DNA of 64,000 bases. Source: Narthecium ossifragum. Lineage: Eukaryota; Streptophyta; Magnoliopsida; Dioscoreales; Nartheciaceae. Both the position numbers and the translations under genes were made by a program. Location of the stretch: the NCBI GenBank assembly GCA_963920575.1, contig OY986966.1:14897297-14961296 (forward strand), given 5' to 3'. This document shows positions 3,917 through 60,092 of this stretch, one piece after another (within the stretch, counting starts at the first letter, position 1; each line of letters opens with the position of its first letter). Below the pieces are notes generated by a model, which worked only from the letters and a program-made list of their open reading frames with translations, did not search any database and had not been told where the DNA came from.

Positions 3917-4249
3917 TGATGATGATGCATAATGTTATATTTTTATCCCGTAATACTTAGTCTCCTGTGCTTATTTGGTACCTAAATATACTCATTATTC
4001 TTATATTTTGATTTAGGATGCAATTGAAGTCCTTAAAGATTAAATTGTACCTGATGATGAAGAACCAGATGATGTGTCATATATGGCTAGAAAGCTCTTG
4101 AAGTCTAGTTTCTGGAGAATTTTATGGTTCATGATTTGGAGCTTCCTAAAGAAAGTTACAGTGCTTTTACTACAACCAGCGCAAGGCAGAATAGCAGAAG
4201 AAATATGCAGAGAATAAGCGATCGATCTTCTTCCCATAAAAGATCGATC

Positions 4250-7414: not shown

Positions 7415-7751
7415 ACGGTCGATCCGGAGATCGACCGTGAGACCACGGACGATGTCACGGTCGATCCGGCGATCGACCGTGAGACCAAAGTGAAGAAAAC
7501 CAAGGGCGACGATCGATCCACCCATCGACCATGAGAGGCCTACAACCAAACAGCGCCTGACGGTCGATGCGACGGTCGATCCGACGGTCGACCGTCAGGT
7601 AAATGGCAAAAAGAGAAGATCCCGGGGTCGATCCATTGATCGACCATGGGAGTACAAAATCCTGAGAGAGCCCGACGGTCGATGCGACGGTCGACCGTCA
7701 GGCCCAGAAAGAGGAAAACAATACTTGACGGTCGATGCACCGATCGACCGT
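7415..7751. repeat. Type A palindrome array in solo LTR alpha
   Basis: Seven imperfect palindromes share arms ACGGTCGAT and ATCGACCGT around a 6-bp spacer. They begin at about 7,415, 7,457, 7,509, 7,560 (a longer compound unit), 7,624, 7,675 and 7,728. Start-to-start distances are 42, 52, 51, 64, 51 and 53 bp. Linking sequences are mostly unrelated, so this is not a simple tandem repeat. The array lies about 0.5-0.9 kb downstream of alpha's TATA box, so LTR transcripts would include it. Confidence 0.8.
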
Positions 7752-14506: not shown

Positions 14507-14916
14507 GTCATTGTCGGAGAACTGTATCCTTCTCCCGGGACGCTAGTTTGGAGGATATCTGCCCGGTAGTCGTCATGAAAAGTTAGTGTAGTTATAAGAG
14601 ATTTTCGAAGATCATGAGACAGACACAAAGCATCGTACACACTAAGCAATGCAGGTACTTTCTTTAAGTGAGACATTACATTGTACTTGACAGACTCATT
14701 TGGGTTTACATTATTTTGCACTGCTTGGTGTGGTTCTTGGTCCCTTCCTCTTGGCTGTGAATGTTGGGAATCTGGAAGTCGGAGCCCGGAGCGGGTGATG
14801 ATTTCGTGGACTTCGGCCTTTTTTTCTTCTGGGAAGCAGAGGGACTCATCGTCATCTCCGAAGACTCCGATGGTGCAACATGAGTAGTTGTCCCAAGAGA
14901 CGCCATTTTTTGGCAC
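14467..14916 (-). pseudogene. E1 gag-protease linker fragment
   Basis: The frame is homologous to about 34,640-35,060 in E2. Shared words include YSCCTIGVFGDDDESLCFP and SVYDALCLSHD. It links the gag C-terminus to protease. The upstream neighbour ends at a stop near 14,950 where E2 has His-Gln, and the downstream protease frame is reached only through a shift near 14,530. The last about 18 codons are out of frame. Confidence 0.65.
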
Positions 14917-14949
14917 ATTTGGTTTTCTGGTTTGAAGGTCTGTTGAGAC

Positions 14950-19444: not shown

Positions 19445-19666
19445 GGGAACATCAGTAGCCGCAACCGAAGTGACAACAGGGATTTTGGCGCCAGGTGTAG
19501 ACGCCACTTTTGTGTTGGTGATCATCGTAACTGGAGCTGTAAGTGAAACTTTGGATGGTGCAGTGCGCATCGGGAGTCCGTCAGTACCCATCGGGATGTC
19601 GAACCAAAGATTACCGAAGCGGATAGTCACGAACACCTCCAAAGTTACTTGTGCCATATCCTTCAT
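19445..19666 (-). pseudogene. gag: E1 gag N-terminus, separated by insertion Y
   Basis: A 74-codon frame starts ATG at 19,664-19,666 and ends where insertion Y begins. When Y and one GGGAA copy are ignored, the frame continues directly into the block at 17,860. It contains VTIRFGNLWFDIPMG, a conserved-looking segment whose role I do not know. It lies 270 bp downstream of the primer site, the expected place for a gag start. E2 lacks this part. Confidence 0.65.
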
Positions 19667-19959
19667 TTAAGAAGGAAGACTACTTGTCAGGATATATGTA
19701 TTTTGATTTTGATTTTGATGATGATTTTTTTTTCATTTTCATTTTCTTTAATTTTGATGATGAAATTATTTTTCATCATCATTTTTTTTTAATCGGATCT
19801 AGAGATGGGAGGTAAGGTGTGGTTTCACCGGGCGTGCTAGATTTTGTTCGCGAATAAAACGTCGATCTCGTTGAGATGAGATTTCTATTTTATTTCTTAG
19901 CAAATCATTTTTAATTTCATACAAGGAAATTGCAGGCACCACACCCCTGGATCGCCAAG
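19667..19959 (-). other. E1 untranslated leader with low-complexity ATTTTG/ATGATG stretch
   Basis: The leader between primer site and gag start is non-coding. 19,700-19,795 is a run of ATTTTG, GATGATG and T tracts that repeats itself irregularly. Confidence 0.6.
19939..19957 (-). other. Primer binding site of Tat E1
   Basis: On minus this reads TGGCGATCCAGGGGTGTGG, two bases after the LTR end (19,960). Position and TGG start fit a tRNA 3' end; the tRNA species is not assigned (Tat/Ogre elements often use tRNA-Arg). Confidence 0.55.
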
Positions 19960-21957
19960 TGGGCAAATCCATCATTTACATCACCATAGGAAACACCTCC
20001 GATTCTAGATCCGATAAAATAAACCTCTTACATAAAAAAGAAAAAAATATATGTCTGGGACCGCCACCTTCATCGCCGGGATTTTTTGAAGTCATTGAAG
20101 TTGGCGGGATGTTGTTAGAGTTTTGTTGTCGGAGCTTCAAAACTACCGGAGTTGGGGAAGACGCCGGATAAAATTGGGAAGGCGCCGTCCAAGCTTCAAG
20201 GCAGGTGAAGATAGGGGGAGCCGCGGATAAAACAGGGGACCACCTGGATCTGTACTTCGTTGCTGTGGAGGTATGGCAGCTGGATATCTCCGATCCTGGA
20301 GTCTTGAGACTGCTGGAGTTGAGGGAGCACCGGGTCCGATCTCTGTCGCCATCGAGGGAGCTGGCTGGAAACAGAGAACAGGGGAAGTGCCGTCTGGAAC
20401 AGAGGAAGCCGCTGAAGAAGATATCACGGGACCTTGGATCAGCGATGGACGGTTGGTGATGAATCTCACTGGGTGTTGATGTCGCCGCGAGCTTTAGGCT
20501 ACGCAAGACGGTAGTGACGGATCCGATGGGGATGCGCCGGGTGTTGGAGATGGGGAACGCCGGAGAAGACCTCGCTGGACGAGATCTCGATGGACGTAGG
20601 TGTTGATGCCGCCGCGAGCTTTAGGCTACATACGGCAGTGGGCGACGGATCCGATGGGGATACACCGAGTGCTGGAGATGGGGAACGCCGAAGAAAGTTG
20701 GGGAGGCGCCGGATAATGTTGGGGAGGCGTCCAAGCTTTAGGATAGACTGGAGCAAGGGAAGCCGTGGCGTGGACCTTGCTGGAGGTGTGCTTCACGCTT
20801 TGCGGGTGGCTCGAGGACGGCGACTGGCTTGAGGAAGGTGACGGGGCTTGAGGAAAGTGAACCTGGGGGCTATGTCGCGCCCCGACCTGCGAAAGCCCAA
20901 CCGGGCCGGGCGACGTGAACCGGAACCTAACCAACGCGGAAAAAGAACGACGAGGGTTCCCTCTAACCTATTGGTCTCCCTAGCAATTCACCAAAACACC
21001 CTCAAGAATACAATATTATAAGCAAAACCTCGAACCTCAGATTAAGAACTCAAGTGTTAATATACAAATCCTCGGAGAGGGGAAGATTCAAAATACATCA
21101 TCACTCCCGTAGGAGACTATCTAACATAGGTATAAAAGCAATAAACGATCACCACCTCTCAGAGACCACCAGGCGCCGCCGCATCGCCGACCAACTGCCC
21201 GGTAGGGGCCACAGAAGAGGAACTGACGCCTGCACCTGCAAAACGCAGCCCCGGGTAGGTGTGAGCACTAAGCTCAGTAGGGATGTACACTACGACACAC
21301 AGAAGGAAGAGGGAAACGCAACAGTGTCGCCCTCAAGCCAGACTCGAGTGAGCTACAATGGTCCCATTATCATTCACCGGTGATCTCTAGGCATATCCAA
21401 CCAAGGTCACCCCAACGGACTGAGCTACAATGGTTCCAGCTGTGGTCACCCAACTCGCCATGGGCCCACACTGATGCCCCTACTGACAGGAATGGACACT
21501 GCCCAAAGAATAAGACCCGTCACCGGTGGCATCCTCAACACCTGACTTGAGGCCGACACGACCTCTACAATCATCAAACATCATGTGTACCAGTCCTCTA
21601 AGCCTATCATAAGTTTCGACTGGACACCACAATTCAAACCGGGTCCTAACAGCCCAACCCCGGTCCTAGGGCTAAGTCCGAGCTTCCAGCCTCGGGACGG
21701 CGACCCAAGGATCACCCACGCCCTAACCAATGCAACTAGTGTACAAAACAACAATGCATGCCATGACATACACAAACAGGAGGTAGGCATGCAACAGTAT
21801 GGCAAACATCATGTAAGTCTACCGGACCGCTGCAGCGGTACTACCGACCGCTGCCAGCCGGTCCGCAGCGGGTCCCGGCATTACGACGGTATCACGACCG
21901 TCAACCGCGAACTCCTGGAACGGGAAGCAACCCCGAAAACGATGATGTACAATAAAC

Positions 21958-21993
21958 AATATAATATTATATTTCGAAATATAATATTATATT
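21958..21993. repeat. Perfect 36-bp AT-rich palindrome
   Basis: The two 18-bp halves are exact reverse complements around the centre TTCGAA. It lies inside solo LTR gamma. Confidence 0.9.
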
Positions 21994-22956
21994 CAAACAC
22001 TCAAAGCCTCTACTTAGGGGATAAATGATCTCGTCGATCCGATGTCCAAACGACGTCGGATTCAAGATCCAACTTAACTACCAGTAGGTGTATAAACCAG
22101 AATCATCATATCCAAAAATCATAATCATCCAACGGTTGGATTAACGGGAAACATTAATAAAAAATCGCTGATTAAACCAACTTACCCTTTAATTGCTGCA
22201 ACGCAGCCCTCCAGCAAACAAATCATAAGAACTCGTACATAAATCGGAAAAATACGAAACAAGATGGAATAGAAAGCTAAAGAGTAGTTCTACAACTCTT
22301 ATGTCTATTAAAAGCCAAGTTTATGTACTTGCCGGCCGGAAAACTCGCCGGAAGCCGGCTGTTTCTCAAGAACAGCAGAAAACCAGAAATCCGGGACTAA
22401 TCTTACATAAAACCTACTCAAATCACAACTGATTAACATGAAACTTAAATCAGTTATTCTAACAGGTATAAGGAACCCAAAAAAGCAAGGATCAACAAGA
22501 TCCAACGGCTAGATCTCATGAAAACCCGAAAAGAACATCAGTAGGTATAACCCTACCTAGCTGCGCTTTCCTCGGCTGATTCCCCGCGATTTGATCGCCA
22601 ACAAGCTGCCAAACCACACCAGGAGCCTTCCTCTCGTTGTCATGAATCCAACGAGCCAAAGAACACCCAATTTGGTGGCCGGAGGAGGGAGAACTGAGGG
22701 AAAGAAGCTCGCCGGCGGTAAAGGGAAGAAACAGAGCACCGCGGGAGGAAAGAGAGGAGGAGGGAAGAAGAAGAGAAGGAGAAGGAGGAAGAGGAGGGGA
22801 AGAAAAGAGGGGAAAGGGGGAGGGGAAAGCCGGGAAAGCCGGGAAAGAGGGGAAAAAGCTGGGGGAAAAGGGAGGGGAAGTCTCCCCCCCCCTGACAGGG
22901 GAGAGCGACGGCCGACGGCCGTCCTCGCGAAAGAGAAAACCCACCGACTCGATCAT

Positions 22957-23078
22957 GATCGATCTCCAAGGCATGTGAGATCGATCTCCTTTGCAATCGA
23001 GATCGATCTCCTTGAAATCCAGATCGATATTCTTTGCAAAAAGGGCTAGATCGATCTCCCTAGCCTTCCAGATCGATC
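22957..23078. repeat. Type C palindrome array (GATCGATC about every 22 bp) in gamma
   Basis: GATCGATC, usually as AGATCGATCTCC, starts at 22,957, 22,979, 23,001, 23,022 (ends in A), 23,049 and 23,071. Steps are 22, 22, 21, 27 and 22 bp. Sequences between the words differ. In gamma's own (minus) orientation the array lies near the 5' end of the LTR, in presumed U3. Confidence 0.85.
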
Positions 23079-24400
23079 TCCTTTACTCAGAAAGGCAAAC
23101 TTGGGCTAAAACACAAGCCCAAGCTCAGATCTTCCGATCTCGGGTTCACCTAGCCATTCTAAACAAACACGAACACAGACAAGGCCAGTGTGTGCACACG
23201 CGGGTGTGAAACAAACCAACAAGGCGCAATTTACCAAATTGCCCTTGTGGTCTACAGCGAGCCACAGGGGTAGAGGGGCAGGTCCTCACAGGCTAGGTGT
23301 TAAGATTTGGCATTTGTTGAGATAGGGTAGGTTAGGATTTCCTAACCATCCAGATCAGGGAGTTGAGATATGATGTTTATATTTTGAATGTCCGTTTAAA
23401 TTTCAAGTTCATGTGTGAACTTGTTTGAATTTTAAACGTTTATCCAAATTTCAAGTATTTATCTTGAATTTGAATGATTGTCCAGACATCGAATATTTAT
23501 CCGAATTTCGAATGTCTTATTTGAGTTTTGAATTTCAATATTTCTTATGGTGATTGGAGGATTTATTGAAATACCCCTGGGCAGATCGGGATATAACCAG
23601 AACATCCTTTTTATCGGTCATATGTATTTTGGACCGAAATGTCCCCGGGGTAGAGAAAATACCTCTATTTCAGATTTTCACATCCCTGAAGATGTGGAAC
23701 GACCAAAATGCCTCTTGGAGTTCAATGGCCAAAATACCCTTTTGGTTTGGTTGTTTATGCGCGACGCATGGCGGCATGACTTTTGTGCGTGTCATGGACA
23801 CATGCGCGTATTATGTGACGCGCGTACTTTAGACTCGATGTATGCGAGTCATGTGCGCGTGCATGGTGCGCGTATCGCCTTGGTCGGGACTTAGGCGAAG
23901 ATGGGTATTTATTTGGATTTATTCTGAATTTTCGGATTTTTCTTCTATTTATTTCAGGGAATTTTCTTTAATGTCCCTAGTGTTGTGGAAAATTACCAAA
24001 ACGCCCTTATATTTAGACAGCTTACACAGCTTATTTAGGATGCCGTCAAAGCTCTGTATAAGCTATTTTGGATTGTAGTGGGAGATTTAGACATGTATTT
24101 TAGTCTAAATTCCCAAAATACCCTTGGGTAAGTAAAATTACCAAAATACCCTTATTCCTCCGGCTTGTATAGGATGCCGTCAAAACCATGAATAAGTAGG
24201 GGATTTGGATAAACTCGATTGTGTCTGAGCCAGTTTGGATTTGGTGCATGCGGATTCAGTCGGGGGAGAACTGCAAATGTTGTCCATTTAGCCTTAGCTA
24301 AAATTGATGTCAACACGTATCCACAGAGATTTGTAAAGATTATTAGAGTTAAACGCTAAAGAACAGAGAAGAAAGAAAATAAAGAAGGTCAAGTAAGAAA

Positions 24401-25493
24401 TGAAGGTCCAAGAGGGGGAGAATTGGACTCTTTTCGAAAAACTAGATTAATGGAAAAATCAGGTAGGAACGAACTAACACCTTAAATGCTTGTAGATGAA
24501 ATGAAACTAAAGTAAAATAGCATGTAAGAATTATATCAAAGAGAGGTTAGAGAGATGGCACCGATTTTATAGTGGTTCGACCCAACTCTTGGTTTACGTT
24601 CACTTCTCTCAAGGCTCTCTTTGAGGTTCCACTACTTGCAAATCTTTTACAAGCTTTTCCTCCAAGCTTCCCGGTGCTTGGTGACCTTACAATCACAGCC
24701 AACTGCTGTTTGATAACTCTCAAAGTGCTTCTTCACACTCGAAGTAGATTTACAAAGGTTGTAGCTCTAAAGAGAATAAGTAGTAACTCTTGCTTAGACT
24801 AGCTCAGATGATCTCAATAATATGAATAATATTTGTGGCAAGTTTACAACAAAAAATTACTTATATCTAGCCTTCAACTAGCTCAAAAACGACCGCCAAC
24901 GGCTCTCTGCAACCGTCCAACGGCTAGTTTTTTACTATGCGCATTGCTGGCGATTCATCCATGCATCGTCAGTGACATCGACCGTCATGTACAAAAACTC
25001 ATCCTTTGCGAGCCGCGGTCGATCCACCCATCGACCGTCGCATCATCCGTCAGGCTCTGTTGTGCAAAATACTTCTCAGGGTCGATGCTCCGATCGACCG
25101 TCGCTTCTTCACTTTTCACCAACATCCTCCACGGTCGACCATCGGATCGTTCGTGAGCCTACAACATTTAAAAACACAAAGTCCAAACCTCACGATCGGC
25201 CGGTCCATCGACCGTCAGGCTCTGTCAAGAAAATGGCTTCGCAAGGTCGATGCAACGATCGATCGCGAGCCAACATTTCATTTTGTCAAGTATGGTGCAT
25301 CGTCCGTGCAACGCCGCAGTCGATCCATGGATCGACCGTTGTATTCCCACAGTCAATCCATGCATCGACCGTCAGTACAATAACTCATTAAATATTGAAT
25401 TTGAGACTTTGAATTAAAGGGGTAATAAATATTAAACATATATTTCATCATTTAATGTATATTGGCATCATCAAAACAAGGTTAGGATCAACA
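24401..25493 (-). mobile_element. Solo LTR zeta, Ty1/copia-like, with 5-bp target repeat AGAAA
   Basis: TGAAGGTCC...ATCAACA on plus (TG/CA ends), flanked by AGAAA at 24,396-24,400 and 25,494-25,498. The length is 1,093 bp. In minus orientation it starts TGTTGATCCTAACC followed by TTGTTTTGATGATGCC, a start typical of plant copia (Sirevirus-like) LTRs; the family name is inference. It contains the type A array. Short ORFs across the array are shadows. Confidence 0.75.
24962..25372. repeat. Type A palindrome array in copia-like solo LTR zeta
   Basis: Eight units related to GGTCGAT-6 bp-ATCGACC start at about 24,962, 25,015, 25,078, 25,131, 25,192, 25,243, 25,316 and 25,349. Steps are 53, 63, 53, 61, 51, 73 and 33 bp. 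Two stretches (25,071-25,088 and 25,206-25,233) recur in reverse complement in Athila LTR L3 at 30,768-30,815. Confidence 0.8.
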
Positions 25494-26172
25494 AGAAATA
25501 AGAAGTACCGAACATAGAAGATCTAATAACAAAATAAGAAAATGATAGAAATATAATGGATGAAGACTAAGGTTCCGATTTCACTGTAACATCCTCATTC
25601 TATGCATTGAATCAGCAAAATCTCAGTTTAAATCAAAGGGTTCGTTCTTCCGGCATGATGATCCGTTCGGCCACGGTCTTCACCAAGTACCCTTAATTAA
25701 CTCTTGCTAATGAACCCATAGCTAACTGTTAATAAAAAATCCACTAAGCTCTGAACAACAATTATGAACCAAGAAATGTCTTAGCTTGAACCCGGTTTTG
25801 AGATAAACTCATTCATTCATAGATTCTACAAGATTAGGGAATGAACCCTCGCCCAATCTCACATAAAACAATCTACAATACTTCTATTGGAAAGATAAAG
25901 CTATTTAAGATCTCAGTTATAATAATGAATGCAACAAGGAATATGAACTGATTAAATAAGCATGATTCAATAACATAGAATGATTCTGTTAGGCTACATC
26001 GATACCTTAGAAAAGAAACTAGCCACTTATGTTCATCATGAAGACAACAAAAGTGTTCACGGAAAAATAAAGAAGAAAGATGAAGAAAACAAAACCCTAA
26101 CGCAACTTCCTCTCCTCCAGATGCTCCAGAAAAGTCCTCCCAAAAAGTCCATTTCAATAACCCTAAGTTTCT

Positions 26173-26180
26173 TATTTATA
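26173..26180 (-). promoter_or_regulatory. TATA box of Athila LTR L1
   Basis: TATAAATA on minus, conserved with L2 (27,059-27,066) and L3 (30,636-30,643), next to the palindrome array. Confidence 0.55.
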
Positions 26181-26244
26181 GGCTTCAAAGGTCTTCAACT
26201 CGGATTAGATATGCACCCTTGATTTTGCTCAACAGCTATTTAAA

Positions 26245-26480
26245 GATCGATCTTTTAGGGGTGAAGATCGATCATTTCATCCCATATAAGTGTCACGCTC
26301 TGAGGATGATTGATCATTTTAAAGGTGATGATCGATCATTTGCATCATCGATTTTCTCAATTTTCTCAACTGCGAAGATGATCGATCTTCTTAAGGGAAA
26401 AGATCGATTCGAGTAAGCATAGCTCTCTGTCATCTCCTGGTGAATAAATGATCGATCTTCATAGAGGAAGAAGATCGAAC
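26245..26480. repeat. Type B palindrome array in Athila LTR L1
   Basis: GATCGATC-like words come in four pairs: 26,245/26,266 (21 bp), 26,308/26,330 (22), 26,380/26,402 (22) and 26,450/26,473 (23). Text between pair members is usually a variant of TTC...GAA, making each pair a loose hairpin. The array lies just upstream of the TATA box. Confidence 0.85.
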
Positions 26481-26543
26481 ATCTTTCATGTGTATTTTCT
26501 CTTTTGTCATTAGACTGCGACATTGGTATTAAAAATACCGTAA

Positions 26544-26679
26544 CTTCCTCTAGAAAAATCGGAATCACGAACCGTAAAATTCTCCAAAAATTAGACTTTA
26601 AGAGCTTTCTAATCTTTGTGAAGCAACATATAGCCTAGAGGAATTTTACGGTTCGTGATTCCGATTTTCCTAGAGGAAG
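26544..26679. repeat. Inverted repeat of 39-bp arms at the L1 U3 edge
   Basis: The arm 26,544-26,582 pairs with 26,641-26,679 with one mismatch. The right arm is the same LTR U3 text in opposite polarity, so LTR sequence turns back on itself at about 26,629. Confidence 0.85.
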
Positions 26680-26779
26680 TGGTGCTCTTTGTCGTGATTA
26701 AATGCACTTAGAAGATCAATCTCTTCCTTGGGTGGAGATCGATCTTCTAAGTGCATTTAATCACGACAAAGAGCACCAC
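26679..26779. repeat. Perfect 39-bp inverted repeat at the L1/L2 junction (copy A form)
   Basis: 26,679-26,717 and 26,741-26,779 are exact reverse complements with a 23-bp loop. In copy B the same arms stand about 0.85 kb apart. Copy A lacks 823 bp between two copies of GAGATCGATC, one of which remains at 26,735-26,744. Confidence 0.9.
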
Positions 26780-26786
26780 TTGAAAG

Positions 26787-26994
26787 GATCGATCATCTCA
26801 CTCGAAAGGATCGATCATTTGAGTGAATTTTTACATGACAGAGAGCACGGATTGCAATGATCGATCTTCCTACGGGGCGAGACCAATGACACAAGAAGAA
26901 GATCGATCTTCACATCATACGAAGATCGATCATTTGCGGTCGTCGCCAGCAACTGATGAAGAAGATTGATCTTCCTCCTTCGGAAGGATCGATC
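26787..26994. repeat. Type B palindrome array in Athila LTR L2
   Basis: Pairs of GATCGATC-like words: 26,787/26,809 (22 bp), 26,901/26,924 (23) and 26,964/26,987 (23), plus a single word at 26,859. A further pair, 26,714/26,737 (23), stands at the deletion junction. The array ends about 65 bp upstream of the TATA box. Confidence 0.85.
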
Positions 26995-27058
26995 ATTTGA
27001 TTGCCAGCGAAGAAAATCAAGGGCCCAGATCTAATCCAAGTTAGGGTTACTTGGAGGT

Positions 27059-27066
27059 TATAAATA
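27059..27066 (+). promoter_or_regulatory. TATA box of Athila LTR L2
   Basis: GGTTATAAATAGG, followed by GTTAGGG-type leader text. The same element exists in L1 and L3. Confidence 0.6.
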
Positions 27067-27893
27067 GGCCTTAGGGAAATTTGGGGATCTTTTTGGAGGA
27101 CTTTCTGGAGCATCTGGAGGAGAGGAAGGCGCGTTAGGGTTTTGTTTTCTTTGTCTTTCTTTCTTTATTTTTCTTTGAACACTTTTGTCGTCTTCATGAT
27201 GAACATGAGTGGCTAGTTTCTTTGCTAAGGAACCGATGTAGCCCTAACTGAATCATTCTATGTTATTGAATTAATGTTTTAATCAATTTATATTTCTTGT
27301 TGCATTCATTATTATAATTGTGATCTTCATGCTTTTACTTGGCCACTAGAAGTACTGTAGATTGTTTTATGCGAGATTAGGCGAGGGTTCATTCCCTAAT
27401 CTTGCAGGATCTATGAATGTATGAGTTTATGTCGAAGTCGGGTTCAAGCTAAGACAATTCTTGGTTCATAATTGTTCTTCAGAGCTTAATGGATTCTTGA
27501 TTAACACTTAGTCATAGGTTCATTTGCAAGGGTTAATTGAGGGTACTTGGTGAAGACCGCGATCGAACGGATCATCATACCGGAAGAACGAGCCCTTGAA
27601 ATTAAATTGAGATTTTGTTGATTCAATGCATAGAATGAGAATGTTGTGATGAAATCAGAACCTTAGTATTCATCCATCATATTTCCATCGTTTTCTTATT
27701 TCGTTATTAGATCTTCTATTTTTGATACTTCATATTTCTTACTTTCCCATCCTTATTTTCTTTCTTTTATGTTCTTTAACGTTTTATTCTAATAATCTCT
27801 ACAAATCTCTGTGGGTACGATACTCGTCTTGGTACTATACTGATCACACCGATTCGTATACTTACGAGATATAAAATTTATTCATCAAGTTTT

Positions 27894-27911
27894 TGGCGCC
27901 GTTGCCAGGGA
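27894..27911 (+). other. Primer binding site of Athila copy at L2
   Basis: TGGCGCCGTTGCCAGGGA follows the LTR end by six bases. TGGCGCCGTTGCCGGGGA is the known tRNA-Asp-type primer site of Athila elements; one base differs. Confidence 0.85.
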
Positions 27912-27936
27912 TTTGATTAGAGTTTATTAGTAGTGA

Positions 27937-29420
27937 ATGCAAGGTCGCCAATCATGGAAAGAAAAGTTGTTGCCCATGAACGATAACATATTTCAAATTG
28001 GGAGCAAGAAGGGATCTAAGAAAGATAGCCTGTACACATCAGATCTAGGAGTTCAACAAGAAGAACAAGAGGAGATAGAGCTTAATAACAATGTACGTCC
28101 TTTGGTGGAGTACGCGAGGCCTACTATTTCTACCTCACCTTCATGCATCGTGTTCCCCGCAGAGGCTAGGAATTATGAACTTAAAAATCTACATTTTTCT
28201 ATGCTTCCTGAATTTCATGGTTTACCTTCTGAAGATGCACTGACTTTTGTTAAAGATTATTATGCTACTATTCAGACTTTTCCTCTAGGTGGCATTATTG
28301 AAGGTCAATTGAGGATGTAATGTTTTCCTTATACCTTGAAGGATAAAGCTAAGAGATGGCTGATGTCATTGCCTCCTGGATCACTCACTAATTGGGATTC
28401 AATTTATAACAAGTTTGTGAGCAAATTTTATTCCCATGCCATGACCACCAACTTGAGGAGGTAAATTCCAAATTTTCAGCAAGCTGATGGAGAACCATTC
28501 CATGAAGCATGGGGTAGATTTAAAATGCTTTTGATGCAATGTCCCCATCATAACTTCTCTTTAGAAAATCAGATGCAATATTTTTATGATGGACTAAATC
28601 TTTCTTGTCAGACTATGGCAGATAATGCTGCATGTGGAGCGATGTTCAAAACGACACCACCAGAGGCATATGAAATTTATGAGATACTAGGATCCAACTC
28701 GCAGCAGAAAGACACGAGGAATAAGGCGAGAGGCATCTATGAGCTTAACCAGAAGGACGACATGGCAAGGCAGATCACAACCCTCAACAAGAAGATGGAC
28801 GCGATGATATCCACACAAAGTCCACACAAGCAAAACCAGTTGAGATTTGTTCAATTTGTAATATTGTTGGTCATAATTTTGATTCATATCCTTCTAGTAG
28901 TGAATTTTCGGAATATGTGCAAGAACAAGCTAATTTTATGAATGCTTATAACCCGAGACCTAGATTTGATCCTTATGCAAATACTTACAATCCTGGTTGG
29001 AGGGAGCATCCGAATTTTTCATGGAAAAATATTGCTAATGCTAGTATGCCTTCTGCTAATCAGTCTAACCCACCTGTTAAGTCGTCTTTTGAAGCGACTA
29101 TATTAGCTTTTATGTAGAAAATAGACTCAAAGATGGAACGGCAGGATTCGGCAATTATTGAACATGAAGCAGCACTGAAGAATATGGTAGCTTCCATTGG
29201 GAAGTTTGAAGTTCAAGTAGGACAGATTACGGATGCTGTTCGAGCCCATGTTCCAGGCAAATTTCAAAGCCAACCTGAGCAAGCCAACACAGTTATTGTG
29301 CTTCGTTCAGGTAAAATAATTGAGAATAAGATTAATGCTGAAGTTACTGATGAGTGTAGTGATAAAAAAATTGAGGAAGTCGAGAGGGAGGAGCGCTCGA
29401 AAAGTCCATCGAAGACCATA
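27937..29420 (+). pseudogene. gag: Athila-type gag, broken
   Basis: The frame begins ATG at 27,937 (MQGRQSWKEK). The gag core reads LHFSMLPEFHGLPSEDALTF, then LKDKAKRWLMSLPPGS and FHEAWGRFK. A zinc-knuckle-like CSICNIVGHNFDSY (28,848-28,889) has Tyr in place of the last Cys. LRSGK near 29,300-29,315 marks the gag-protease junction region. Breaks: TAA at 28,318, TAA at about 28,465 and TAG at about 29,116 (each one C-to-T step from CAA or CAG), plus a shift near 28,830. At 29,421 it stops abruptly and opposite-strand gag follows, so no protease or pol is present. Confidence 0.8.
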
Positions 29421-29763
29421 TCTGAATAGTAGCATAATAATCTTTCACAAAAGTCAGTGCATCTTCAGAAGGTAAACCATGAAATTCAGGAAGCATAGAA
29501 AAATGTAGATTTTTCATTTCATAATTCCTAGCCTTTGCGGGTAACGCGATGCATGAAGGTGAGGTAGAAATAGTAGGCCTCGCATACTCCTCCAAAGGAC
29601 GCGCATTGTTATTAACCTCTATCTCCTCTTGTTCTTCTTCTTGAACTCCTAAATCTGATGTGGACATGCTGTCTTTGTTAGATACCTTCTTTCTCCCAAT
29701 TTGATCTATGCTATCGTTCACGGGCAACAACTTTTCTTTTCATGATCGGCGACCTTCCATTCA
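29421..29763 (-). pseudogene. gag: Second Athila gag 5' fragment, inverted
   Basis: On minus, starting at 29,763, it matches the first about 110 codons of the plus-strand gag but with many substitutions (PVNDSIDQIGRKKVSNKDS against PMNDNIFQIGSKKGSKKDS), so it comes from a different family member. An early TGA stands where the plus copy has Trp (TGG). Homology ends at DYYATIQ, at the inversion junction. Confidence 0.8.
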
Positions 29764-29785
29764 CTACTAATAAACTCTAATCAAA

Positions 29786-29803
29786 TCCCCGGCAACGGCG
29801 CCA
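29786..29803 (-). other. Primer binding site of inverted Athila copy at L3
   Basis: On minus TGGCGCCGTTGCCGGGGA, exactly the tRNA-Asp-type site, followed toward higher coordinates by LTR L3. Confidence 0.9.
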
Positions 29804-30635
29804 AAAACTTGATGAATAAATTTTATATCTCACAAGTATACAAATTGGTGTGGTCAGTATAGCAGCAAGACGAGTATCATACCCACAGAGATTTGTAAAG
29901 ATTATTAGAGTAAAACGCTAAAGAACAGAGAAGAAAGAAAATAAGGAAGGTAAAGGAAGAGATAAGAAGTACCGAAAATAGAAGATCTAATAGCAAAATA
30001 AAAAAATGATGGAAATCCTATGGATGAAGATTAAGGTTCCGATTTAACCATAACATCCAAATTCTATGCATTGAATCAACAAAATCTTAGTTTAATCCAA
30101 GGGTTCGTTCTTCCGGTATAATGAACATTTCGATCGCAGTCTTCACCAAGTACCCTCAATTAACCCTAGCTAATGAACCCATAACTAAGTGTTAATCAAG
30201 AATCCATTAAGCTCTGAAGAATAATTATGAACTAAGAATTGTCTTAGCTTGAACCCGGCTTTAACATAAACTCATTCATTCATACATCCTGCAAGATTAG
30301 GGAATGAACCCTCGCCCAATCTCACATAAAATAATCTATAATACTTCTATTGGCCAGATAAAGGTATTTAAAATCTCAGTTATAATAATGAATGAAATAA
30401 GAAACATAAACTGATTAAATGACCATGATTCAATAACATAGAATGATTCTATTTGGCTAAATCGGTACCTTAGAAAAGAAACTAGCCACTCATGTTCATC
30501 ATGTAGACGACAAAAGTGTTCAAGAAAAAATAAAGAAAAAAAGACAAAGAAAACAAAACCCTAACGCAGCTTCCTCTCCTCCAGATGCTCCAGGAAAGTC
30601 TTCCAAAATGTCCCCTTTGATAACCCTAAGTATCC

Positions 30636-30643
30636 TATTTATA
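30636..30643 (-). promoter_or_regulatory. TATA box of Athila LTR L3
   Basis: TATAAATA on minus, at the position conserved in L1 and L2. Confidence 0.55.
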
Positions 30644-30694
30644 GGCCTAAACTCGGGTTAGATCTGGGTCCATTATACGCTCGCTGCTGATCTG

Positions 30695-30882
30695 GCGGTC
30701 GACCGTGAGACCTGACGGCCGACCGTCAACTGTACACATTAATTTAGAAGAGCGGCGGTCGATCATCGCATCGACCCTGAGAAGTGTTTTTCTTGACAAA
30801 GGCTGACGGTCGATGCTACGATCGACCGTGAGAATTTTGAGCGCGATGGTCGATCTCACGAATGATGCGACGGTCAACCGTC
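30695..30882. repeat. Type A palindrome array in Athila LTR L3
   Basis: GGTCGACCGT, GGTCGAT...ATCGACC and related palindromes, four to six units, upstream of the TATA box. 30,768-30,785 matches the reverse complement of zeta 25,071-25,088 exactly, and 30,788-30,815 matches zeta 25,206-25,233 at 26 of 28 positions. Confidence 0.8.
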
Positions 30883-31218
30883 ACTATTCATTCAGCACTA
30901 CGCACTGGTACGAAAAATATTGTAACTTCCTCTACGAAACTCGGAATCATGAAGCGTAAAGTTATCCAGAAACTAGACGTGAAGGGCTTTCCAACTATAT
31001 ATGGTACATCATCTAGTTCTTCATGACCAGGTACAGTTTAATCTTCCAAGTTAACTCATGTAATCTTTTCAGCTTCTTTTAACTCCAATTTCCTGCATTT
31101 TTCAAACAACTATGTAAAGCACATATAAGTGTAAAAATAGTATTAAAGAATAAGGGTGATAATCTATCAATTGAGATGCTTATAAGACTATTCAGAGTAC
31201 ACTTTCATGCACTCATTA

Positions 31219-32400
31219 AACTCCATCTCATCTCTAGAGAAAACTCACATTACGACCACCGTCTACCCCAGGGCACGTGCTCTGTGACCTCCACTGTCAA
31301 CAGAAGTACCTCTCTCTACAACCAAGCACTCCAGCGCTGAAACATTAGGGCGTAGGACACAAGGTGGCACGTAACTTCCTCTAACACAGATACTGAGACT
31401 AGAATCCTGGGCGACCTCTACACCTCAATGAGAAAAATCATACCCAGCTAGACACCATCCTCAAGAATACAAGATTCCAACTTAATACAATCACGCCCTA
31501 GACCTTACTTCCTAGCCACGGTCCTAGAACTAGATTCGAGCTACCCGAGAGCCTCGGATCGACGAAGACCCTATTCACCCACACCCTAACCTTATGCTCT
31601 AATGCAAACAAGATGCATGCAATGCTCAGGCACAAATATAGAGACATAAGCATGCAACAAGATGACATCAATTATACAGGTCGAGGCATAGCCTATAGCT
31701 AGCCAAAGGGGTGAGCATAGCAAGGCTCTCAAATACATATAAGCTATACTAACAATATAACGATTTTAGCATAGCGATAATGATAACACAGATATATAAT
31801 AGTCTTCAGTGCACTCCGGCACCTGACAGACTAAGGTTCCACAGTTACCCCGCACCAACAGCTAAGCAACAACAACAATCGAGCCAATTTCGACATTACA
31901 GCGGTGTCCACAACCGTCAATCGAAATTTGATACAAGGGGATACAACCCCGACCAAACCACACAACAAGATATATAATCTAGCAGTACAACAGGTTATGC
32001 CCCTGGCGCACGCCGACAATCAGTGGGGCTATTAATCAAAGCAGTAAATCTATACTAAGCATGCTGGGCACACCTTCGACCCATTTACTCTACACATTCC
32101 ACAAAGCTGTAAATGGATATGTACAAGGGTTAGGAAAGCTATTAAAGTGATTACAAACTATCTGCACATATATGTATAGCATGTTTATCGGGGAACTGCT
32201 TGAAAATGGTAGAAACCGGTAAATCGATCCGGAATCCAATTCACAGCGTAATCCAAGGATAAACCCGTGAAAATCCCGATTAAAATTTATAATAATCCTT
32301 ACCTATCAACGGGAAAGCCACACGAGAAATTTGTGTCGAAAAGAAACCGAGAACACCAAATTCGAATCAATTATAACAAATCAGCATATAAAAGATAGAC
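31219..32400 (-). mobile_element. Truncated chromovirus-family LTR fragment (epsilon)
   Basis: 31,490-31,660 closely matches alpha at about 6,900-7,060 (GAGCTACCCGAGAGCCTCGGAT and neighbouring text) in the same plus-strand polarity, hence a minus-orientation LTR. Both termini are missing. It lies between L3 and the 5'-truncated Tat E2. No gene is visible. Confidence 0.6.
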
Positions 32401-34266
32401 TCAAGTTCACCCATATCCCTGTCAAGGCAGAGAAGCCCGTCGGAAAGAAGAAGAATACAAAGTCAAAAGCGGCCATGCATCGTCCTCCGTTTCATGCTGG
32501 GGGCTCAAGCCATCCTTATTATGGAGTATCTCTCAAGACCAATTCGTTCGAGGCTCCATCATGGACAAGTCCAAACACAGAGGGGGTCCTTCAAGAGAAT
32601 GAATTTGATATCATTGCAGCAATGCCCGTTGGAATTCAAGATGGCGAGATGTCCACTTCCTCCAATACATCTTCAAATGTTCCGCCGAAAAGACGAAGGA
32701 AGAAAACCGCCGTCGAAGAACCTAAAAAATGCGTCATCGTCAATTTACCAAACCGTCCATGGACTAGAAGCGTCACCCGCTCCCTTGGCAGTAAAGACGT
32801 GGCTTCCGAGGCATCATATGAATGCCAATTTCCTACTCTCCCTGAGTCCTCGGTGAACGAATTGCCTACAAGCATATCCCCTTCACCTAAGCGCTACCAA
32901 GTGTTTGCTACCACAGTCGAAGAGTAGTTGGAGCAATTGAGGAACGCGCTACAACTAAAGGATGCCGAGATAGCCAGCCTCAGGGTTCAAGTACCTCCTG
33001 AAAATAATTCACATGCTGAAAATAATTCTCATGCGAATGTGTCACCCAATATGGTACCTCTTGACACTGTACAAAAATTAGACGCCGAGAGCGTGAGAGC
33101 CTTCCACATGCAAAACTAGTATGCCACAAGGCCGGGATACATGAAGCCATACCCTGCTGATATAGACCTGGTCCCATACCCAGCAAACTATCGACAGCCT
33201 CAATTCGCCAAGTTTAGCGGGAGTGGATCCCCGCATGAGCACATTGCTCATTTCCTAGCAGCCTGCCAGGACACGGCTCATAACGGTGCACTGTTACTAC
33301 GTCAGTTCGTCCAAACCCTCTCTGGACCGGCGTTTACTTGGTACAACAAGCTGCTTCCGGGATCCATCACCTCATGGGAACAGATGCAGGAGGCATTTCT
33401 TCAAAGGTTCTATAGTACCGAAAGAAGCGTGGGGATAACGGAGCTCACCCAAACTGAACAGAGTCCACACGAGAAGGCTGCCGGACTTCATCAACAGATG
33501 GAGGAACTTAAGCATCCACTGCCCGCAGCCCATCACGGAAGCAGAAGCTGTATGGATGTGTATGAACAACCTGCATCCGGAGATGGCACTCTACTTGCAA
33601 GGCGTTCGTCCGCTCTCCTTATATGAATTGGCCTCTAAGGCCACAGACATGGAAAACTACCTGCACCATATAGCCAGAAAAAATCATGCAACAGATGGAG
33701 TCCTAAATCGTGCCAAGAAAGATAAAGCTCCACCAAAGGGGAAGGCAGTACTGCAAACCTCCACAACACATGCGCCTAAACCAAAGGAGACTTACGTTCC
33801 CAGAGAACAATTTCGGTCCAGGGATGGCTCATCGGAACCAACACAGCTGCGGATGAAGACTCTTAAGGAGAGGATAGAAAAGGAGTACTCCTTCCCCCGA
33901 GAAGAGGTCTCTGACATCTTCAGGGGCTTGCTGGATATTGGACTTATAGAGCACCTGGAGCCACGACGCCCTGAAGAAGCAAATAAGGTGGACGAACCTA
34001 AGTATTACCACTACCATGGAATACTGGGACACACCCTCCAAGACTGCTTCGTCCTCAAGGACAAGATCCAGAAGCTGATCGACGAAGGAATCATGGACGC
34101 TGGGCTCCTGAAGGAGCTTCAAAAAGAGAAAAGGACAGAGTCGACACACATGATCACAACTGTGGCCGGATCTGGATCCTTACACGAAGAGTACACACTC
34201 TCGACACTTGCTCTTAGGGAAACTGGGCGTGTCCCTCAAATACTTCCTCCAAGTGACATTGAGAAT
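32401..34266 (+). pseudogene. gag: E2 gag, broken
   Basis: It is homologous to E1 gag from GSSHPYYG onward. Motifs: coiled coil after 32,928 (LEQLRNALQLKDAEIASLR), gag core (HEHIAHFLAACQDTAHNGAL, FTWYNKLLPGSI), and the His/Cys segment YYHYHGILGHTLQDCFVLKD near 34,000-34,060. Breaks: TAG at 32,925 (GAG in E1), TAG at 33,117 (CAG in E1), a frameshift at about 33,480, and TGA at 34,267 (CGA in E1). Particle formation is not possible from this copy. Confidence 0.8.
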
Positions 34267-34272
34267 TGATAT

Positions 34273-35303
34273 ATGTCTATTTCTCCCCCTGAGAAATACG
34301 TGGCTCCTGTCCAGGTGTCCGTCGAGCGAAGCCCTTGGTCTACCTTGGGAGAACTGTGCCCCCCTGACTCGGATGATGAAGAGTCCTGGTCTGACATGGA
34401 GCCGAGTTATGATCACTTCTGGAATACCTACTTCAGCAAGAGACAGAAGAAGAAACAAGCCTTCAACCAAAGGATTAAGGCCGCCAGATATAACCCTCCA
34501 AGACCTCCGCTTCCCCGAGATTGGCAGCCGAGGCCGAAGCGGCATAGATCTCCGAAGTACAAGATCTTGACAAAGGTGATGAATCGTGAAGAGATAGAAG
34601 GGTTCATTCATCAAGTCTCCACGGATCTCCGAGCTAGGAAGCCGCATGTGCTGCAAAATAATGTCCCTTGGGACAGCGAGGATTACTCTTGCTTTACCAT
34701 AGGAGTTTTGGAAGATGATGACGAATCCCTCTGCTTCCCAAAAGAGGAGAAGGCCGAAGTCCACGAGATCGTCACCCACTCCGAGCTCCGACTTCCAGAT
34801 TCCCAACCTTCACGCCCAAGAGGAAGGGACCAAGAACCGCAACAAGCAATGCATGATGTAAACTCGAATGAGTCTGTCAAGTACAATGTTGTTTTTCATT
34901 TAAAGAAAATACCTACATTGCTTAGTGTGTACGATGCCTTGTGTCTCTCACATGATTTTCGTAGGTCTCTTATAACTGCATTATCTTTTCCTGACGACTA
35001 CCGGGCAGAAGTCCCCCAAACTAATGCCCATGTAGCTGAAAGTTTAAACATAGAATTTTCCGATGATGACCTATTACTCGGGGCAAAACCCCATAATAGG
35101 CCGTTATTAATCACCGGTGATATCAATAACGTTCCTACGTCACGGGTAATGTTAGACTGCGGGTCGGCCATTAATCTTCTGCCACTCAAAACGCTTCGTG
35201 ACTTAGGGATATGATATCGATGACTTGAGATCAAGTAACATAATAGTCCAAGGCTTCAACCAAGCCGGACAACATGTGCTAGGTTCTATACATCTAGCAC
35301 TAA
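34273..35303 (+). pseudogene. E2 gag-protease linker and protease
   Basis: The open frame runs from 34,273 to 35,214. The N-part is a Pro/Arg-rich linker (FSKRQKKKQAFNQRIKAARY). The protease core DCGSAINLLP near 35,155-35,185 keeps the Gly that E1 has lost. A 1-bp insertion near 35,206 shifts the frame right after LRDLG. Homology to E1 then continues to SIHLALK (35,303), where it stops at the RT deletion. Confidence 0.75.
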
Positions 35304-39886: not shown

Positions 39887-40086
39887 NNNNNNNNNNNNNN
39901 NNNNNNNNNNNNNNNNNNNNNNNNNNNNNNNNNNNNNNNNNNNNNNNNNNNNNNNNNNNNNNNNNNNNNNNNNNNNNNNNNNNNNNNNNNNNNNNNNNNN
40001 NNNNNNNNNNNNNNNNNNNNNNNNNNNNNNNNNNNNNNNNNNNNNNNNNNNNNNNNNNNNNNNNNNNNNNNNNNNNNNNNNNNNNN
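39887..40086. other. Assembly gap, exactly 200 N
   Basis: A run of 200 N. The exact round size suggests a fixed placeholder, not a measured distance. Any translated product spanning it is not real. Confidence 0.95.
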
Positions 40087-40109
40087 TGGTTGCTTGCGAC
40101 AGCACACCA

Positions 40110-42967: not shown

Positions 42968-43000
42968 ATTTGGTTTTCTGGTTTGAAGGTCTGTTGAGAC

Positions 43001-52366: not shown

Positions 52367-54679
52367 CGTATCCACAGAGATTTGTAAAGATTATTAGAGT
52401 TAAACGCTAAAGAACAGAGAAGAAAGAAAATAAAGAAGGTCAAGTAAGAAATGAAGGTCCAAGAGGGGGAGAATTGGACTCTTTTCGAAAAACTAGATTA
52501 ATGGAAAAATCAGGTAGGAACGAACTAACACCTTAAATGCTTGTAGATGAAATGAAACTAAAGTAAAATAGCATGTAAGAATTATATCAAAGAGAGGTTA
52601 GAGAGATGGCACCGATTTTATAGTGGTTCGACCCAACTCTTGGTTTACGTTCACTTCTCTCAAGGCTCTCTTTGAGGTTCCACTACTTGCAAATCTTTTA
52701 CAAGCTTTTCCTCCAAGCTTCCCGGTGCTTGGTGACCTTACAATCACAGCCAACTGCTGTTTGATAACTCTCAAAGTGCTTCTTCACACTCGAAGTAGAT
52801 TTACAAAGGTTGTAGCTCTAAAGAGAATAAGTAGTAACTCTTGCTTAGACTAGCTCAGATGATCTCAATAATATGAATAATATTTGTGGCAAGTTTACAA
52901 CAAAAAATTACTTATATCTAGCCTTCAACTAGCTCAAAAACGACCGCCAACGGCTCTCTGCAACCGTCCAACGGCTAGTTTTTTACTATGCGCATTGCTG
53001 GCGATTCATCCATGCATCGTCAGTGACATCGACCGTCATGTACAAAAACTCATCCTTTGCGAGCCGCGGTCGATCCACCCATCGACCGTCGCATCATCCG
53101 TCAGGCTCTGTTGTGCAAAATACTTCTCAGGGTCGATGCTCCGATCGACCGTCGCTTCTTCACTTTTCACCAACATCCTCCACGGTCGACCATCGGATCG
53201 TTCGTGAGCCTACAACATTTAAAAACACAAAGTCCAAACCTCACGATCGGCCGGTCCATCGACCGTCAGGCTCTGTCAAGAAAATGGCTTCGCAAGGTCG
53301 ATGCAACGATCGATCGCGAGCCAACATTTCATTTTGTCAAGTATGGTGCATCGTCCGTGCAACGCCGCAGTCGATCCATGGATCGACCGTTGTATTCCCA
53401 CAGTCAATCCATGCATCGACCGTCAGTACAATAACTCATTAAATATTGAATTTGAGACTTTGAATTAAAGGGGTAATAAATATTAAACATATATTTCATC
53501 ATTTAATGTATATTGGCATCATCAAAACAAGGTTAGGATCAACAAGAAATAAGAAGTACCGAACATAGAAGATCTAATAACAAAATAAGAAAATGATAGA
53601 AATATAATGGATGAAGACTAAGGTTCCGATTTCACTGTAACATCCTCATTCTATGCATTGAATCAGCAAAATCTCAGTTTAAATCAAAGGGTTCGTTCTT
53701 CCGGCATGATGATCCGTTCGGCCACGGTCTTCACCAAGTACCCTTAATTAACTCTTGCTAATGAACCCATAGCTAACTGTTAATAAAAAATCCACTAAGC
53801 TCTGAACAACAATTATGAACCAAGAAATGTCTTAGCTTGAACCCGGTTTTGAGATAAACTCATTCATTCATAGATTCTACAAGATTAGGGAATGAACCCT
53901 CGCCCAATCTCACATAAAACAATCTACAATACTTCTATTGGAAAGATAAAGCTATTTAAGATCTCAGTTATAATAATGAATGCAACAAGGAATATGAACT
54001 GATTAAATAAGCATGATTCAATAACATAGAATGATTCTGTTAGGCTACATCGATACCTTAGAAAAGAAACTAGCCACTTATGTTCATCATGAAGACAACA
54101 AAAGTGTTCACGGAAAAATAAAGAAGAAAGATGAAGAAAACAAAACCCTAACGCAACTTCCTCTCCTCCAGATGCTCCAGAAAAGTCCTCCCAAAAAGTC
54201 CATTTCAATAACCCTAAGTTTCTTATTTATAGGCTTCAAAGGTCTTCAACTCGGATTAGATATGCACCCTTGATTTTGCTCAACAGCTATTTAAAGATCG
54301 ATCTTTTAGGGGTGAAGATCGATCATTTCATCCCATATAAGTGTCACGCTCTGAGGATGATTGATCATTTTAAAGGTGATGATCGATCATTTGCATCATC
54401 GATTTTCTCAATTTTCTCAACTGCGAAGATGATCGATCTTCTTAAGGGAAAAGATCGATTCGAGTAAGCATAGCTCTCTGTCATCTCCTGGTGAATAAAT
54501 GATCGATCTTCATAGAGGAAGAAGATCGAACATCTTTCATGTGTATTTTCTCTTTTGTCATTAGACTGCGACATTGGTATTAAAAATACCGTAACTTCCT
54601 CTAGAAAAATCGGAATCACGAACCGTAAAATTCTCCAAAAATTAGACTTTAAGAGCTTTCTAATCTTTGTGAAGCAACA
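52367..54679 (-). mobile_element. Copy B of Athila LTR L1
   Basis: Identical to 24,316-26,628, with solo LTR zeta at 52,452-53,544 and the type B array at 54,296-54,531. Confidence 0.75.
52452..53544 (-). mobile_element. Copy B of copia-like solo LTR zeta
   Basis: Identical to 24,401-25,493, with AGAAA flanks at 52,447-52,451 and 53,545-53,549. Confidence 0.75.
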
Positions 54680-58683: not shown

Positions 58684-60092
58684 TGATGAATAAATTTTAT
58701 ATCTCACAAGTATACAAATTGGTGTGGTCAGTATAGCAGCAAGACGAGTATCATACCCACAGAGATTTGTAAAGATTATTAGAGTAAAACGCTAAAGAAC
58801 AGAGAAGAAAGAAAATAAGGAAGGTAAAGGAAGAGATAAGAAGTACCGAAAATAGAAGATCTAATAGCAAAATAAAAAAATGATGGAAATCCTATGGATG
58901 AAGATTAAGGTTCCGATTTAACCATAACATCCAAATTCTATGCATTGAATCAACAAAATCTTAGTTTAATCCAAGGGTTCGTTCTTCCGGTATAATGAAC
59001 ATTTCGATCGCAGTCTTCACCAAGTACCCTCAATTAACCCTAGCTAATGAACCCATAACTAAGTGTTAATCAAGAATCCATTAAGCTCTGAAGAATAATT
59101 ATGAACTAAGAATTGTCTTAGCTTGAACCCGGCTTTAACATAAACTCATTCATTCATACATCCTGCAAGATTAGGGAATGAACCCTCGCCCAATCTCACA
59201 TAAAATAATCTATAATACTTCTATTGGCCAGATAAAGGTATTTAAAATCTCAGTTATAATAATGAATGAAATAAGAAACATAAACTGATTAAATGACCAT
59301 GATTCAATAACATAGAATGATTCTATTTGGCTAAATCGGTACCTTAGAAAAGAAACTAGCCACTCATGTTCATCATGTAGACGACAAAAGTGTTCAAGAA
59401 AAAATAAAGAAAAAAAGACAAAGAAAACAAAACCCTAACGCAGCTTCCTCTCCTCCAGATGCTCCAGGAAAGTCTTCCAAAATGTCCCCTTTGATAACCC
59501 TAAGTATCCTATTTATAGGCCTAAACTCGGGTTAGATCTGGGTCCATTATACGCTCGCTGCTGATCTGGCGGTCGACCGTGAGACCTGACGGCCGACCGT
59601 CAACTGTACACATTAATTTAGAAGAGCGGCGGTCGATCATCGCATCGACCCTGAGAAGTGTTTTTCTTGACAAAGGCTGACGGTCGATGCTACGATCGAC
59701 CGTGAGAATTTTGAGCGCGATGGTCGATCTCACGAATGATGCGACGGTCAACCGTCACTATTCATTCAGCACTACGCACTGGTACGAAAAATATTGTAAC
59801 TTCCTCTACGAAACTCGGAATCATGAAGCGTAAAGTTATCCAGAAACTAGACGTGAAGGGCTTTCCAACTATATATGGTACATCATCTAGTTCTTCATGA
59901 CCAGGTACAGTTTAATCTTCCAAGTTAACTCATGTAATCTTTTCAGCTTCTTTTAACTCCAATTTCCTGCATTTTTCAAACAACTATGTAAAGCACATAT
60001 AAGTGTAAAAATAGTATTAAAGAATAAGGGTGATAATCTATCAATTGAGATGCTTATAAGACTATTCAGAGTACACTTTCATGCACTCATTA
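58684..60092 (-). mobile_element. Copy B of Athila LTR L3
   Basis: Identical to 29,810-31,218. Type A array at 59,569-59,756. Confidence 0.8.

Follow-up and report, generated by a model that had tools for sequence, protein, structure and literature searches.

How do long terminal repeats (LTRs) of unrelated retrotransposon superfamilies come to carry the same arrays of short palindromes? The question is raised by a 64,000-nucleotide stretch of the Narthecium ossifragum genome (contig OY986966.1, positions 14,897,297 to 14,961,296 of the forward strand), designated the window, in which such arrays are found in Athila-like, chromovirus-type and Copia-like LTRs. The control regions of LTRs are generally assumed to evolve inside a single retrotransposon lineage. 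An original prediction, made from the letters of the window, proposed instead that the arrays form a cassette exchanged between superfamilies. This exchange reading was largely supported by the analysis described here, if only in part: a module consisting of half-sites, a 31-nt linker and a dyad was found in Copia and Gypsy LTRs, and its linker is homologous between them far beyond the controls.

The palindrome arrays themselves are real. The pattern GGTCGAT-N6-ATCGACC, with at most two mismatches, matched the window 22 times, compared with 0.17 expected from shuffles, and the genome of 379.4 Mb contained 18,660 exact sites and 0 sites for the reversed pattern that served as a control. Two half-sites, YSAC-GGTCGAT and the mirrored form, lie on either side of a 6-bp centre and make up one unit, the dyad; the half-site is extended by SAC before GGTCGAT. 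The assignment of array types to LTRs was also confirmed, with type A in alpha, zeta and L3, type B in L1 and L2 and a row of GATCGATC in gamma. The features on which the argument depends are as follows.

24401..25493, minus strand: zeta, a complete solo LTR assigned to the Sirevirus type
24396-24400 and 25494-25498: the 5-bp target duplication of zeta, tttct in LTR sense
24977-25370: type A array of zeta
25017..25099, plus strand, antisense to the LTR: zeta module 1, with half-sites, the 31-nt linker at 25049-25079 and a dyad at 25080-25099
25182..25264, plus strand, antisense to the LTR: zeta module 2, with degenerate first half-sites, the linker at 25214-25244 and a dyad at 25245-25264
30697..30880, minus strand: type A array of L3, an Athila-like LTR at about 29815-31217
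30757..30827, minus strand: shared module of L3, with dyads at 30757-30776 and 30808-30827 flanking the linker at 30777-30807, scored in this 71-bp dyad-linker-dyad extent rather than the wider 83-bp form
7417..7749, minus strand: type A array of alpha, a chromovirus-type (Ty3/gypsy) LTR, inside 5,993-11,185, a range for which the original prediction noted no array
7511-7593 and 7626-7683: alpha modules, both in LTR sense and both containing the shared 31-nt linker
26245..26480, minus strand: type B array of L1, an Athila-like LTR with R/U5 at 25493-26183
26714..26994, plus strand: type B array of L2, an Athila-like LTR

Of 86 linkers between dyads, 83 were 10-13, 20, 30-34, 42-44, 53 or 66 nt long and three were 16, 25 and 39 nt. 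The 31-nt class was homologous across lineages, with the form gtcag(g/c)ctctgt...cttctcag, and three half-sites, the linker and a dyad were found in one arrangement over 83 bp in the Athila, Sirevirus and chromovirus lineages. Both of the stretches that the original prediction had matched between zeta and L3 were recovered by eye, 25071-25088 as the reverse complement of 30768-30785 (18 of 18) and 25206-25233 against 30788-30815 (26 of 28). The stretches do lie in a different order in the two LTRs, as had been seen, but this is not a rearrangement, because zeta holds two paralogous modules and L3 a single copy. One end of the L3 linker was closest to one of the zeta linkers and its other end to the other.

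The homology was measured in two samples. The first comprised 18 linkers chosen with no selection on sequence; five near-duplicate chromovirus linkers were left out and two zeta linkers were added from longer or cited stretches. When the Copia linkers were reverse-complemented, 10.9 of 21 core positions agreed with the Gypsy linkers, compared with 5.1 in the direct reading and 5.4 for shuffled cores (standard deviation 0.5, maximum 7.3 of 5000). The larger set had 95 admitted rows: 31 Athila, 38 Sirevirus, 19 chromovirus, of which three were reverse readings that were dropped for the tree, and 7 divergent Sirevirus-like, of which one was in fact the DNA transposon L011. The mean agreement was 14.7 for Athila and Sirevirus (column-permuted null 5.4, standard deviation 1.5, maximum 9.6 of 500), 11.0 for Sirevirus and chromovirus (permuted maximum 9.3) and 8.6 for Athila and chromovirus (permuted maximum 8.0), absolute values that are inflated by the admission of rows at a likeness of at least 14/31 to a seed linker. 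The module was antisense to the LTR in 38 of 38 Sirevirus rows and in LTR sense in all 31 Athila rows and in 16 of 16 chromovirus rows, the three reverse readings being left out. Exchange between superfamilies, the central claim of the prediction, thus agrees with a Copia/Gypsy linker homology far above both permuted and shuffled controls.

Similar arrays could also have arisen by convergence, if sites for the same host factor were arrayed independently by local duplication and the flanks were part of the site. The extension of the half-site by SAC before GGTCGAT, the tandem structure within arrays and the phasing of dyads in every sampled lineage, described below, are all in keeping with this. 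The shared 21-nt linker core, however, lies outside the extended site and matches between Copia and Gypsy far above the controls, the half-sites and linker keep the same order over 83 bp, and one Athila-like LTR (L045) has an array of another type, D, that runs into a type A end, so that convergence was considered quite unlikely. In a tree of the module (82 columns), 30 of 31 Athila modules were sister to one of two Sirevirus paralogues, with a Shimodaira-Hasegawa-like approximate likelihood-ratio support (SH-aLRT) of 94; the module of L023c stood apart from the other Athila modules.

The elements that carry the arrays were classified by their nucleotide similarity and by the protein domains near them. 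The survey covered the first listed of the 18,660 sites, all within the first 3.04 Mb of contig C1, which formed 17 clusters (L005-L021). Seven were alpha-type LTRs (L005, L006, L009, L013, L019, L020 and L021), three were LTRs of a sister family (L008, L014 and L015), two were zeta-type (L010 and L012), four were divergent Sirevirus-like LTRs (L007, L016, L017 and L018) and one, L011, was a DNA transposon. The chromovirus-type arrays that were analysed came from 7 fetched loci and the window. A Ty3/gypsy polyprotein with RVT_1, RVP_2, RT_RNaseH and Integrase_H2C2 lay downstream of the L005 array; the name chromovirus for alpha is an inference, the L005 DNA examined ending before the region of the integrase C-terminus and chromodomain.

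For zeta, 18 of 38 copies from outside the window were used. In one relative, L102, RVT_2 (E 7.5e-71) lay between two zeta-type LTR matches about 8.5 kb apart. In another, L101, the LTR ended in a C-rich signal and then CA, followed by a primer-binding site (PBS), giving CCAATTCACCCCCTCTTGGACCTTCA-AT-TGGTATCAGAGC, and the letters of TGGTATCAGAGC are what we take to be a mark of Sireviruses. A C-rich signal close to the 3' end of the LTR and a conserved junction are given as such marks in the accessible part of the published account (PMC2829016). Because its relatives have RVT_2, the C-rich LTR end and the PBS TGGTATCAGAGC, zeta is, as judged from L101 and L102, of the Sirevirus (Copia) type. 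L102 also had a further dyad cluster 3' of pol (sense 2209-2411), which resembles the repeated-motif (RM) boxes that have been published near env.

The Athila-like label of L1, L2 and L3 comes from a match to Retrotrans_gag (E 6.8e-8); no reverse transcriptase or env was placed with these LTRs. The region downstream of L2 contained the following.

About 27060: TATAAATA, after the type B array of L2
Near 27893: primer-site text TGGCGCCGTTGCC, presumably of the tRNA-Asp type

Array type was found to change within the Athila-like family. In L1 and L3 the R/U5 is 88% alike and the next piece of U3 80%, with different arrays in between. A search with the L3 R/U5 (40 of 1,948 candidates scored) gave 41 matches, of which two were the window itself and one was a second piece of another match, leaving 38 loci as U3 pieces. 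Type A arrays were present in 32 of the 38, some of them truncated, and type D arrays (tccGATCGATCgga) in five (L044, L050, L051, which was truncated, L053 and L055); in the remaining one, L045, the D array continued into an A-type promoter-proximal end. Array type was set against a tree of the R/U5 of 20 of the 38 loci and of L1, L2 and L3, and did not track it: 7 changes were counted against a shuffled mean of 7.6, and 78 of 200 shuffles were as low. The U3 head of L044, which has a D array, was closest to copies with A arrays (0.94). The L023c array had B, A and B units mixed together, and D arrays also occurred on other R/U5 types (L022 and L006/L023b). Array type in the Athila-like LTRs switches between closely related flanks.

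The prediction had also proposed a search for arrays outside retrotransposons, and a related cassette was found in a DNA transposon.

L011:4107-5228, and L103-L112: Mutator-like element, about 1.1 kb long, with the array in its centre

The family is dispersed (40 of 557 candidates scored). Terminal inverted repeats were present in 11 of 11 copies, with 178-332 bp aligned at 74-92% identity, and 9-bp target duplications matched at 8-9 of 9 positions in nine of ten copies when shifts of up to 2 and 1 bases were allowed; seven of the ten were in exact register, compared with 0 of 90 swapped pairs. The long inverted repeats and 9-bp duplications indicate that the family is probably Mutator-like. 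The dyad array lies between the inverted repeats, with units mostly 63-64 bp apart and a 31-nt linker in addition. The best linker of the family agreed with that of the Sirevirus-like L018 at 20 of 21 core positions, and L109 matched the L018 LTR over 115 bp at 87.8% (E 4.7e-33). Pack-MULEs are Mutator-like elements that carry captured pieces, usually genes, between their terminal inverted repeats, whereas the cargo here is a palindrome array of LTR type. Nothing points to a cassette that moves by its own machinery, and the word mobile in the prediction is not supported in that sense.

The spacing, position and composition of the arrays bear on what they do. Dyads were spaced by near-whole helical turns of about 10.5 bp, which is new here. 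The phasing statistic R at 10.5 bp was 0.94 for alpha LTRs (50 gaps), 0.62 for the other loci of the first sample (29 gaps, Rayleigh p about 2e-5), 0.83 for Athila (53 gaps, leaving aside 6 D or hybrid loci), 0.75 for Sirevirus (109 gaps) and 0.84 for the DNA transposon (34 gaps), gaps within one family not being independent. The phase was within 0.6 bp of zero in all lineages except the DNA transposon (1.1 bp). The last half-site of the Athila arrays was 59-81 bp before the TATA box in 35 of the 36 copies measured out of 38, and at 120 bp in the other. The observed/expected CpG ratio of the Athila arrays (28 of 38 copies) was 1.53 compared with 0.48 upstream, the upstream piece including some DNA from outside the LTR, and that of the Sirevirus U3 pieces was 1.44. 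The phasing, the retention of CpG and the place before the TATA box therefore fit a protein bound on one face of the DNA.

The prediction had also spoken of a hairpin module. In this view the arrays would have a structural or epigenetic role, with RNA or single strands folded into hairpins that act as a source of small RNA or as a packaging or strand-transfer signal, a case that has been made for the palindromes of maize Sireviruses. In type A arrays, 106 of 113 changed arm cells among 98 unique dyads were one-sided and the outer flanks had no covariation. The centre was less palindromic than column shuffles, its end bases pairing in 24 of 124 dyads compared with 56.2; the two halves of a dyad therefore tend to differ, a hint that the dyad may be bound by an asymmetric complex. 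Centre bases 1 and 6 were mostly G..G, C..C or C..G and never G..C in the 124 dyads. Helical phasing is a property of double-stranded DNA, and the Athila arrays are upstream of the TATA box, both of which argue against hairpins. Arm positions 4 and 5 of type A, on the other hand, paired above shuffles (z 3.8 and 2.7), and type B spacers covaried at inner positions 1, 2 and 4, where 31, 27 and 25 of 42 unique spacers were paired against a null of 20.3, 17.5 and 13.9; position 3 covaried less and the 6-nt type B centre paired at chance. The GATCGATC pairs for this comparison were taken from L007, L009, L015, L020, L023, L024 and the window. Palindromic regions of maize Sireviruses are, moreover, small-RNA hotspots according to the accessible parts of two reports (PMC10760457, PMC5311732). 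The hairpin claim is thus disfavoured for type A, with its mostly one-sided arm changes and a centre that avoids palindromy, and gains some support for type B. As an account of the arrays in general it was considered unlikely. Hairpin maintenance as the main driver of type A was rejected because of the one-sided arm changes and the centre.

The explanation favoured here, with a probability of roughly 0.65, is that the arrays are protein-bound promoter modules that have been exchanged among elements. The arrays would be compact, promoter-proximal regulatory modules with the dyads as units. A single dimeric host DNA-binding protein would occupy the dyads along one side of the helix, ahead of the TATA box, and would drive, or gate, transcription of the element; the binding and the enhancer role, like the mechanism of exchange, are inferred. 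The unit-plus-linker module (half-sites, 31-nt linker, dyad) would stem from a common source and would have been copied between Sirevirus, Athila-like and chromovirus-type LTRs, with a related form passing into the Mutator-like element, and would then have spread vertically within each lineage. Copying among the LTR elements most likely went by template switching or by gene conversion of one array by another, and the self-complementary half-sites could serve as junctions in either orientation; the DNA transposon most likely captured a piece of an LTR. It is possible, and more tentatively proposed, that the module is a selfish cassette passed horizontally, in one genome, among unrelated elements of both classes that all come to depend on a single host DNA-binding protein, in which the half-sites are at once binding sites kept in register and orientation-free junctions for shuffling between co-expressed elements.

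Several observations weigh against exchange of a protein-bound module, in addition to the inflated linker values and the dependence among gaps mentioned above, 1) an approximately unbiased (AU) test did not reject Athila and chromovirus modules grouped together (p 0.485), 2) in a quick tree of the module, 62 of 89 inner branches were open, 3) the Athila R/U5 tree was weakly resolved, with 3 of 20 inner branches starred, 4) of four U3 heads measured from D-array loci, the three other than L044 had a D copy as nearest neighbour, 5) the transposon linkers, 29 rows picked by a linker word and including a few off-register readings, were within the null range against Athila (9.6, null maximum 9.8), Sirevirus (9.2, 10.0) and chromovirus (8.3, 8.9), 6) the transposon phasing was mostly one spacing (63-64 bp) and its double, with a best period of 9.15, 7) the spacing of type B pairs had no clear 10.5-bp period (R 0.54, best 9.25), 8) no TATA box was located after the chromovirus-type array, and 9) the covariation of type B spacers, and the pairing at type A positions 4 and 5, suit a hairpin. 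On sequence comparison the homology of the linkers across superfamilies is firm; the transfer route is not.

The nearest relatives in the literature are the RM boxes of Sireviruses, multiple CpG-rich palindromes that precede the TATA box in U3, have the form CGG...CCG and in Vitis read CGGTCGACCG (PMC2829016). The arrays resemble them in position, palindromy, CpG content and partly in sequence (CGGTCGACCG), and a cluster 3' of pol is present in L102 too. Since clusters of palindromic boxes ahead of the TATA box are already in print for Sireviruses in that account, as far as its accessible text goes, an entirely undescribed system, as the prediction had it, is too strong a claim. Bousios et al. 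(2010, PMC2829016) described the boxes as confined to Sireviruses and lacking in classic Copia elements, whereas arrays were found here in Gypsy LTRs and in a DNA transposon as well: the dyads and linker occur in two Ty3/gypsy LTR groups and a related form in the transposon. Helical phasing and homology of a module across lineages are likewise features of the arrays here and not of the RM account in its accessible part. Palindromic U3 boxes are then not Sirevirus-specific.

A maize palindrome, CACCGGACNNNGTCCGGTG, is reported to be the commonest motif in the structured regions of Copia elements and Helitrons (PMC10760457) and is similar in that one palindrome is present in two classes of transposable element; its sequence is different, and linker homology, phasing and swapping are not part of the accessible account. 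Fusion of LTR elements by template switching has been proposed as a joining route (Sabot and Schulman 2007, PMC1950507), and, in the text available, concerns large fused elements rather than a short U3 module passed between superfamilies. Literature searches, which covered few subscription journals, found no description of these arrays, of LTR phasing or of linker sharing. If the exchange reading is correct, the presence of one homologous module in Copia elements, in two groups of Gypsy LTRs and in a DNA transposon would show that mobile elements trade regulatory parts, and the shared response of unrelated families to one host signal would be explained.

Part of the window is itself duplicated. 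A gap of 200 N at 39887-40086 is directly followed, at 40087, by the start of duplicated sequence: 40087-54795 is 100% identical to 12036-26744 and 55609-64000 is 100% identical to 26735-35126, the two blocks being separated by about 800 extra bases (54796-55608). The region 40087-64000 very likely results from a false duplication where scaffolds were joined. The arrays beyond 40 kb, listed below, are 100% copies and are therefore not independent evidence.

53068..53421, plus strand: copy of the zeta dyads in the duplicate 40087-54795, an assembly duplicate
59631..59701, minus strand: copy of the L3 dyads in the duplicate 55609-64000, an assembly duplicate

The duplicates after the gap lend something to the view that the sharing as a whole is an artefact, whether of copies confused in assembly or of one small element nested in several hosts, the latter named in the prediction as a reading that would undo it. 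The arrays, however, differ by many substitutions and sit on many contigs, and inspection by eye found neither ends nor a target duplication at the borders of the A and D arrays. Both forms of this explanation were rejected, the nested insertion by eye, and are highly improbable as the source of the sharing.

Two further arrays in the window consist of GATCGATC.

22957..23078, minus strand: gamma LTR, a row of GATCGATC with a spacing of mostly 22 bp, named type C in the original prediction
4220..4249, plus strand: type B pair (GATCGATC, 22-bp spacing) that follows an Athila-like U3 head at 4036-4160

The gamma LTR has pieces in common with chromovirus-type LTRs. Stretches were also common to the B arrays of Athila LTRs and those of gamma-type LTRs (best E 1.9e-10 compared with 0.22 in reversed controls), a match that is inflated by the repeated GATCGATC.

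Two minor observations concern the Athila-like elements. In L022, two LTRs at 587-2388 and 6268-8069 that are 99.3% identical and carry type D arrays enclose an internal region of about 3.9 kb, a young, short Athila-like element that is perhaps non-autonomous. Imperfect inverted repeats between the opposed LTRs L1 and L2 lie at 26543-26781, with 77% identity over 145 bp and 91% over 105 bp.

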